A stretch of 42,222 nucleotides of DNA. Origin: Isoptericola sp. BMS4. Lineage in GTDB: Bacteria; Actinomycetota; Actinomycetes; Actinomycetales; Cellulomonadaceae. Location of the stretch: contig NZ_SIRP01000001.1 in the NCBI RefSeq assembly GCF_011634835.1, positions 1,165,606 through 1,207,827 of the forward strand, given 5' to 3'. Below the pieces are notes generated by a model that was not told where the DNA came from, did not search any database, and saw nothing but the letters and a program-made list of their open reading frames with translations. The position numbers and the translations under genes are program-made. This document shows positions 23,097 to 40,110 of the stretch, piece after piece; the first letter of the stretch is position 1; every line of letters begins with the position of its first letter.

Positions 23097-23627
23097 GTGC
23101 CCACCGAGCCCCAGGACCCGATCGCCCTGCGTCCCGCCCTGCCCGCCGACATGCGCGCGGTGCGGGGGCTCGTGGAGCCGTACGCCGAGCGACGCATCCT
23201 GCTCGACAAGGAGATGGTCGGCTACTACGAGGCCGTCCAGGAGTTCGTCGTGGCGACGTCCACCGACGGCGGCACAGCCGGTGACGTGGTCGGGTGCGGC
23301 GCCCTGCACGTCATGTGGGAGGACCTCGCCGAGGTGCGCACCCTGGCGGTCGACCCGGCGTGGCGCGGACGGCGCGTCGGGCACGCCCTGCTGGCGGCCC
23401 TGGTGGAGCGGGCCCGCGGCCTCGGGCTCCGCCGCGTCTTCTGCCTGACGTTCGAGGTCCCGTTCTTCGCCGCGCACGGGTTCCGCGAGATCGACGGCAC
23501 GCCCGTCACCGCGGACGTGTACGCCGAGCTGCTGCGCTCGCACGACGACGGCGTCGCGGAGTTCCTCGACCTCGCCCACGTGAAGCCCAACACGCTCGGC
23601 AACACCCGCATGCTCCTCGACCTCTGA
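23097..23627 (+). CDS. argA: Amino-acid N-acetyltransferase (short N-acetylglutamate synthase)
   Basis: GNAT-fold enzyme of 176 residues that would acetylate L-glutamate (or glutamine) as the first step of arginine synthesis. It closely follows the Mycobacterium tuberculosis Rv2747 layout: 'YEAVQEFVVA', 'VVGCGALHVMWEDLAEVRTLAV', 'VFCLTFEVPFFAAHGF', 'GTPVTADVYAE', 'GVAEFLDLAHVKPNTLGN'. The acetyl-CoA loop is RGRRVG (about 89-94). It is a monocistronic gene convergent with mutY across a 124-bp palindrome. Confidence 0.92.
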   Translation: MPTEPQDPIALRPALPADMRAVRGLVEPYAERRILLDKEMVGYYEAVQEFVVATSTDGGTAGDVVGCGALHVMWEDLAEVRTLAVDPAWRGRRVGHALLAALVERARGLGLRRVFCLTFEVPFFAAHGFREIDGTPVTADVYAELLRSHDDGVAEFLDLAHVKPNTLGNTRMLLDL

Positions 23628-23642: not shown

Positions 23643-23766
23643 CTCCGGTGTTGTGGGTACGAAGATGGCGTGGATCCGGGCCCGGATCCACGCCATCTTC
23701 GTACGTACGAAGATGGCGTGGATCCGGGCCCGGATCCACGCCATCTTCGTACCCACAACACCGGAG
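23643..23766. repeat. Perfect 124-bp palindrome with internal tandem 48-bp palindromes
   Basis: The whole segment equals its own reverse complement, centred between 23704 and 23705 with no spacer. Inside are two head-to-tail copies (23657-23704 and 23705-23752) of a 48-bp palindrome, each beginning GTACGAAGATGGCG and centred on GGGCCC. The outer 14-bp flanks begin CTCCGGTGTTGTGG. It lies between convergent argA and mutY and would form one long or two shorter hairpins in either transcript, acting as a terminator. Confidence 0.95.
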
Positions 23767-23773
23767 TGGGTGG

Positions 23774-24679
23774 TCAGGCAGGCAGGTGGAAGCGGTCCGC
23801 GTCGTCCTGCTCGATCAGGCCGTCCTCGACCAGGCCCGCGAGGCAGCGCTCCACCTGCACAGGGTCGGGCCCGGAGTCCGCGAGCAGCGCCCGGGGGACC
23901 GGGGCGTCCGAGGCCCGCAGGGCCGCCATGACGCGCCCGCGGACCTGGCGGTCGGTGCCGTGCCACGCCTGGGTGCGGCGGCGGTGCGCGTGCGCGTCCG
24001 GCGGGTGCCCGGCGGCGCGCCAGGCGCACAGGTCGGCGACGGGGCACGCGTGGCAGCGCGGGGCGCGCGCGGTGCACACCAGCGCGCCGAGCTCCATCGA
24101 CGCCGCGGCCCAGCGGGCCGCCGTGGCGTCGTCCGCCGGGACGGCAGCGGCGGCCAGGGCGCGCTCGGCCGCGGTGGGTGACGGGGCGCCGAGGGCGGTG
24201 CCGCCGAGGGACCGGGCGAGGACGCGCCGCACGTTCGTGTCCACGACGACGGCGCGGCGGCCGAACGCGAACGCCCGCACCGCGGCCGCCGTGTACTCGC
24301 CGACGCCGGGCAGGGCACGCAGCGCCTCCTCGTCGTCCGGCACCGCGCCGTCGTGCCGCTCGACGATCGCGCGGGCGCAGTCGGCGAGCCGCAGGGCTCG
24401 GCGCGGGTAGCCGAGGCGGTCCCAGGCACGCAGCACCTCCGCCGTGGGGGCGGTCGCGAGGTCGGCGGGGGCGGGCCAGCGGCGCATCCACTCGCGCCAC
24501 ACCGGCTCCACCCGCACGACCGGCGTCTGCTGCAGCATCACCTCGCTGACGAGCACCTGCCAGGGGGTCCGGTCCGGGCGTCGCCAGGGCAGGTCGCGGG
24601 CGGCGCCCGAGAACCAGTCGGTGACGCGCTCGACGAGCTCGTCGGTGGTCTCGGGGGCCGGGGGCGCGGTGGTCGACAC
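23774..24679 (-). CDS. mutY: A/G-specific adenine DNA glycosylase
   Basis: Base-excision repair enzyme of 301 residues that removes adenine opposite 8-oxoguanine. The catalytic Glu is E46 (SEVMLQQT) and the Asp is D147 (VVDTNVRR). The helix-hairpin-helix is LPGVGEYTA (about 123-131). The 4Fe-4S cysteines are C202, C209, C212 and C218 in the expected 6-2-5 spacing. The C-terminal NUDIX-like domain of E. coli MutY is replaced by a short winged-helix-like tail (about 235-301), as is usual in actinobacteria. The GTG start at 24679 begins VSTTAPP; there is no strong ribosome site. Confidence 0.95.
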   Translation of the reverse strand: MSTTAPPAPETTDELVERVTDWFSGAARDLPWRRPDRTPWQVLVSEVMLQQTPVVRVEPVWREWMRRWPAPADLATAPTAEVLRAWDRLGYPRRALRLADCARAIVERHDGAVPDDEEALRALPGVGEYTAAAVRAFAFGRRAVVVDTNVRRVLARSLGGTALGAPSPTAAERALAAAAVPADDATAARWAAASMELGALVCTARAPRCHACPVADLCAWRAAGHPPDAHAHRRRTQAWHGTDRQVRGRVMAALRASDAPVPRALLADSGPDPVQVERCLAGLVEDGLIEQDDADRFHLPA

Positions 24680-24829
24680 GGTGGCCCATTCTCTCCCACG
24701 ACCTGTCACGCTCGGGTACCGGTCGACGGCCATCTCGCCCTGACGACTGGGGGTGGCGGCGCGGCTGCGCGGTGGGCGCGTGCCCACGTCGTACTGTGGC
24801 GCCGGCAGTACGAGACGGAGGGGTGGCCG

Positions 24830-33390: not shown

Positions 33391-33452
33391 GTTGTGGGCG
33401 CGATTTCGGGGACAATCCGCGGTCGGATCGTCCCCGAAACCGCGCCCACAAC
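33391..33452. terminator. 29-bp-arm inverted repeat between convergent genes
   Basis: Arms 33391-33419 and 33424-33452 match except at two positions, around the 4-nt loop CGGT. Both mismatches become G-U pairs in a minus-strand transcript, so the hairpin is fully paired there. The arms begin GTTGTGGGCGCG. It lies between the exporter permease and the phytase gene. Confidence 0.8.
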
Positions 33453-40042: not shown

Positions 40043-40110
40043 CCGGGTCGGCATCCCGTCCCCGGGTCGGCACACAGGCGTGCCGACCCGGGGACGGAAT
40101 GCCGACCTGG
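40043..40110. terminator. 30-bp-arm inverted repeat between convergent genes
   Basis: Arms 40043-40072 and 40081-40110 match at 28 of 30 positions around an 8-nt loop. Each arm holds GTCGGCA twice with CCGTCCCC between. It lies directly after the HAD gene stop and after the bS22 terminator. Confidence 0.8.

Follow-up and report, generated by a model that had tools for sequence, protein, structure and literature searches.

Paired DNA-uptake sequences serve as terminators in Neisseria and Haemophilus, where short words form inverted pairs in gene-end hairpins and occur as lineage dialects. REPIN and RAYT are systems related to the REP and BIME elements. REP and BIME elements are themselves dispersed extragenic palindromes, which often lie between convergent genes and come in species-specific types (PMC1525189). 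For high-GC bacteria, I-shaped (U-less) intrinsic terminators have been described as stable GC-rich hairpins located about 50 nt or less from the stop codon (PMC8269248, PMC12288462), with a "U-lack" class defined by uridine count and bidirectional transcript ends reported in Streptomyces clavuligerus (PMC8269248). The need of mycobacterial RNA polymerase for a U-tract is a point on which two titles in the reference list of PMC12288462 contradict each other.

We analyzed a stretch of 42,222 nucleotides from Isoptericola sp. BMS4 (hereafter the window, numbered from its first letter), in which a palindrome of 124 bp separates an argA-like from a mutY-like gene. At a rough probability of 0.88, the whole explanation is that an assembly artefact has doubled a real 76-bp hairpin belonging to a dispersed family, which is most likely a two-strand terminator. 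This hairpin would most likely belong with the known dispersed extragenic palindromes, acting as two-strand terminators mostly without a U-tract. Neither the hairpin family nor this artefact was described in the titles and abstract openings of the literature searched.

The palindrome between argA and mutY as assembled

The palindrome occupies positions 23643 to 23766 (no strand assigned) and consists of two 62-nt arms with zero mismatches and zero spacer, inside which two identical 48-bp palindromes adjoin each other at 23657-23704 and 23705-23752. Such a perfect 124-bp string is far beyond chance, and it is present just as the sequence-only reading had described it, with two 48-bp inner units and neither loop nor mismatch. 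On its left, an argA-like amino-acid N-acetyltransferase gene is encoded on the + strand (23097-23627; NF005921, 267.2 bits with a cut-off of 180), leaving 15 nt between its stop codon and the palindrome. On its right, a mutY-like A/G-specific adenine glycosylase gene is encoded on the - strand (23774-24700, start codon position not fixed; TIGR01084, 194.5 bits, under the curated cut-off of 286.5), and its reverse stop codon lies 7 nt past the palindrome end. The gene ends at 23627 (+) and 23774 (-) bear out the convergent argA/mutY setting that the same reading had claimed for the palindrome.

Other hairpins of the window differ from this one. At 33391-33452 (no strand assigned), between convergent gene calls, lies a second hairpin of a wider group framed by TTGTGRG...CYCACAA that has a different inner sequence. 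A hairpin type with GTCGGCA ends, unrelated to the ends of the TGTGGG family, is found at 40046-40107 and also at L020 (2114-2173), where the copy is a perfect 60-bp palindrome.

A dispersed family of gene-end hairpins

When the argA-mutY region was searched against its own genome (4.43 Mb in 47 contigs), 47 matches were obtained, and almost all of these hit the palindrome. The pattern GTGGGTAC-N24-54-GTACCCAC gave 29 forward matches in this genome and none in a backward control; these merge into 26 loci, or 27 with the window, given that two doubled loci match twice and one pair of matches flanks an N run. Looking for copies elsewhere in the genome, as the sequence-only reading had advised, proved the right check: this genome of the Isoptericola group carries a family of 27 dispersed loci with the ends TGTGGGTACG...CGTACCCACA, whose doubled members all measure 124 bp. 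Units in the 26 loci besides the window are 56 bp long in 22 cases and 55 bp long in four, and the copies are alike in sequence and not in shape alone (79% mean column identity). At several loci the outer arms are locus-specific yet complementary. We regard it as virtually certain that this dispersed family of gene-end hairpins is real. The frame TTGTGRG...CYCACAA has 19 matches in the same genome, comprising four of the exact family and 15 with further inner types, one of which is common with the relative G011. We also note an inner module, AGACACGCCG, that occurs both with GGGTACG ends (L077, L078, L079) and with GGGCGCG ends (L210, L232), as if ends and centres recombine.

The family resembles the uptake sequences of Neisseria and Haemophilus in having a conserved short word as an inverted pair in gene-end hairpins, with lineage dialects. 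It differs from them in that TGTGGGTACG has 53 of its 54 matches within hairpin loci and only one outside (a backward-pattern control gave 7 matches), and a DNA-uptake sequence was rejected because the word is not enriched as single copies. The likeness to REP and BIME elements as characterized in PMC1525189 is that the family is dispersed, extragenic, palindromic, often located at convergent genes, and divided into species-specific types. Unlike these elements, it is built of units that are each a single long, near-perfect hairpin whose interior covaries, and no Y1 transposase (PF01797, Y1_Tnp) was detected in any of 18 genus genomes by a search whose control was positive in 5 of 14 named genomes; a REP element with a RAYT transposase was rejected on the basis of this missing gene. 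A quick look at a few flanks revealed no target-site duplications. An Rfam search returned 20 matches with E no higher than 1, each of them under its gathering score, which were discarded for these scores and for being mostly to microRNA models that any long hairpin would match.

Doubling at a fixed total of 124 bp

Three of the 27 family loci are doubled, namely the window, L008, and L009. Their inner blocks measure 48, 56, and 60 bp and their outer arms 14, 6, and 2 nt, respectively, and the total is exactly 124 bp, or 2 x 62, each time; the single hairpins implied at these loci are 76, 68, and 64 bp long. At L013, 62 palindromic nt are followed by exactly 100 N and then by the mirror 62 nt, implying a hairpin of 66 bp. 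This N run (1117-1216; G000:C1:1316116-1316215) lies between two identical 58-bp palindromes. Rather than separating two copies or masking a stretch, it most likely marks a scaffold gap within one hairpin. That three totals equal 124 bp despite differing units, together with the 62-nt cuts at L013, points to contig ends at k-1 = 62. The perfect palindromes of L019 and L026 (62 bp) and of L020 (60 bp, the other hairpin type) are all single, and a scan of 150,971 bases revealed no perfect palindromes of 64 to 122 bp; these bases comprise the window and partly overlapping stretches around hairpins.

A perfect palindrome of at least 64 bp would fold on itself in a de Bruijn graph with k = 63. The left contig would then close with the first 62 nt of the hairpin and the right contig would open with its last 62 nt, so that a blunt join of both would always yield a perfect palindrome of 124 bp whose centre is duplicated. 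For every locus we wrote a model sequence containing one hairpin and determined the de Bruijn contig ends at all odd k between 41 and 127. In these models the contigs stop k-1 nt inside the hairpin on either side, and k = 63 is the sole odd value in this range that fits all four loci (hairpins of 76, 68, 64, and 66 bp) letter for letter. Since the models are the assembled palindromes collapsed, and any single locus totalling 124 bp fits k = 63 by construction, the weight of this fit comes from one k serving four loci with different units. For the window, the model at k = 63 places the inferred left contig end at 23643-23704, where the 76-bp hairpin would contribute its first 62 nt (outer arm of 14 plus block of 48), and the inferred right contig start at 23705-23766, its last 62 nt, with the blunt join at 23704/23705 and no strand assigned to either part. 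Among 12 undoubled control loci, the same k predicts no break in 10 and a break in two, the perfect 62-bp copies L019 and L026; these are single in the assembly, apparently by the usual merging of contigs that overlap by exactly k-1. By this modelling, the assembly would have been made at k = 63 with contigs joined blunt.

Replication slippage that tandemly doubled the centre of the hairpin would instead have left a true 124-bp palindrome in the cell. A palindromic block duplicated in tandem does give a perfect palindrome, such as the string found here, and doubling is seen at three loci; however, three independent events would each have had to hit exactly 124 bp despite different blocks, the identical 62-nt cut recurs beside the 100-N run of L013, and the two perfect 62-bp copies are undoubled. 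The relative Isoptericola sp. AK164 (G017), for which PMC10425560 gives PacBio sequencing and FALCON assembly, has perfect hairpins of 64, 66, and 66 bp that are all single among 16 chosen of its 32 forward matches, in agreement with the doubling being an artefact. We consider a real duplication very improbable.

The 124-bp palindrome is thus almost certainly an artefact of short-read assembly in which the middle of a single 76-bp hairpin has been written twice, and the cell most probably holds one perfect 76-bp hairpin in the argA-mutY gap. The sequence-only reading was right to flag the risk of an assembly artefact, as seen from the 124-bp totals and the k = 63 fit at four loci. The recent duplication of a hairpin that it had proposed gives way to contig ends at k = 63, which explain all four affected loci and likewise account for the 124-bp string without a loop that it had found exceptional. 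The duplicated palindrome is in all likelihood unreal, and the 76-bp hairpin underneath remains. For other draft genomes this offers a simple test: where perfect palindromes recur throughout the assembly at a constant length of 2(k-1), they are contig joins.

Base pairing, folding, and the U-tract

Covariation was assessed over 23 units, comprising 22 of 56 nt and the collapsed unit of the window and leaving out the four 55-nt units. Both sides are altered in 17 of 27 pairs and 95.2% of the 621 cells are paired, while none of 500 shuffles equalled the real units on any of five covariation measures and sliding the partner by 1 to 3 positions lowers pairing to 29-43%. The eight pairs that never vary are uninformative because the search pattern demanded those ends. 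G-U pairs are rare (9 of about 591 paired cells), which fits a structure needed on both strands because a G-U pair on one strand corresponds to C-A on the opposite strand, though the same scarcity is equally predicted by a DNA-level role or by template-switch repair of imperfect palindromes.

For the 76-nt RNA, the folding energy is -77.2 kcal/mol (z -15.6). Fewer than three T are present in the 8 nt after the stem at 51 of 54 strand ends, and the window hairpin's own + strand, with exactly three T, is among the three strand ends with at least three. Under the U-lack class of PMC8269248 as defined there by uridine count, these 51 of 54 family strand ends belong and the + strand of the window does not. 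A promoter and terminator scan found no consensus terminator, as expected given that the T-run is absent.

Distribution and site history among relatives

The exact family is confined to one of the 18 genus genomes, that of BMS4 itself. Matches to the looser frame TTGTGRG...CYCACAA occur in 14 of the 18, where the control never exceeds one match per strand. Across the taxonomic family, 43 of 121 genomes have them, though many of these 43 are no higher than their own control. At least 10 forward matches are found in 14 genomes from five genera, with controls of 0-3. G113 and G077 of genus g7 have 104 and 73 looser-frame matches, compared to 19 in BMS4. The inner sequences of these hairpins differ between species.

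All 17 same-genus relatives searched have argA, and mutY lies beside it in 14 of them, with a gap of 0-51 bp and no long hairpin in 13 of the 14; the gap of G005 measures 91 bp and has a hairpin of different inner sequence. In G019, which belongs to another genus, the argA-mutY gap (L053, 2038-2126) contains a different repeat, GCCGAGGTAGTGCCTTCGTCGGACGA, twice.

For a comparison of sites, 54 hairpin loci of six relatives were aligned by blastn with 41 stretches of the BMS4 genome, dropping one G005 match to a homopolymer tract. Ten of the 54 lie at the same gene end as a BMS4 stretch, some of them with only one flank aligning: 2/7 in G005, 3/4 in G006, 3/11 in G014, 1/15 in G011, 1/16 in G017, and 0/1 in G009. 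Around one would be expected by chance from some 40 BMS4 sites and perhaps 2000 gene ends, a rough estimate and not a computed control.

These data bear on the idea that the family is chiefly a selfish and mobile REP- or MITE-like palindrome, which settles after gene ends because little damage is done there and for which any termination is a by-product. Its copies would be alike in both sequence and shape, as observed, and the hairpin-free argA-mutY gap in 13 of 14 relatives, the restriction of the exact family to one genus genome, and the variation of inner sequences between species all agree with mobility. We nevertheless find it somewhat unlikely in view of the missing Y1 transposase in 18 of 18 genus genomes, the locus-specific yet complementary outer arms at several loci, and the gene ends common to species in excess of the rough chance estimate (10 versus about one).

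The shared gene ends carry differing inner sequences. At the L017 gene end, three inner types occur in four species (one in BMS4, one in both G006 and G014, and one in G011), while the size of 60 bp and the GTTGTG/CACAAC frame are kept. That gene-end hairpins of this bacterial family stay put while their inner sequence is swapped wholesale is a tentative and rather doubtful proposal; if true, it would need a process of copying or conversion without a REP-type transposase. Against it, the BMS4 genome holds several inner types including that of G011, so the dialects are not cleanly separated, and hairpins may instead have been gained independently at favoured sites.

Position at gene ends and probable transcription termination

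The GC phase at third codon positions classifies 16 of the 27 loci as convergent, 11 as co-directional, and none as divergent; the background from points placed each 25 bp in the window is 241 convergent, 1163 co-directional, and 237 divergent. A rough gene caller finds a gene 3' end no more than 25 nt away for 25 of the 27 loci, the exceptions being L015 (89 nt) and one L020 hairpin that it left unplaced. It counts 18 convergent, 11 co-directional, and no divergent contexts for 29 hairpins, a set that includes the two other-type hairpins of the window, but it missed mutY, and the context counts quoted are those of the GC-phase test. In relatives, 19 of 20 hairpins hand-picked for near-perfect stems are convergent and one is co-directional by GC phase.

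A role at the DNA level, with the hairpin forming a cruciform or binding a protein so as to organize the chromosome or to relieve the supercoiling that lies between convergent genes, would draw on the convergent position of 16 of 27 copies and on the scarcity of G-U pairs, which is expected if DNA or both RNA strands pair. Two-strand termination or template-switch repair predicts the same, however, and we judge a DNA-level role to be quite improbable. None of the results obtained indicates the replication or recombination hot spot that the sequence-only reading had offered as another option.

We think that the hairpins of this family are probably bidirectional terminators, a reading drawn from their sequence and setting. 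The most likely function follows from the position after stop codons, the stable hairpin, the pair-preserving change, and the mostly absent U-tract. The 76-bp hairpin would act as an "I-shaped" terminator of the kind that needs no factor and mostly lacks a U-tract, stopping transcription on either strand, and the transcripts of argA and mutY would thereby be kept from running into each other. Counting against a two-strand terminator, 11 of the 27 copies are not between convergent genes. The "super-terminator" suggested by the sequence-only reading is still plausible, unlike the recent duplication that it proposed.

Like the I-shaped terminators described in PMC8269248 and PMC12288462, the family members are stable GC-rich hairpins soon after a stop codon and mostly lack a U-tract. 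They differ in being near-perfect, about 56-76 bp long, and homologous dispersed copies with conserved ends, and their termination is a prediction. We see a moderate interest in these lineage-specific, near-perfect gene-end hairpins, which would act on two strands in high-GC bacteria, a group for which U-tract-independent termination continues to be debated.
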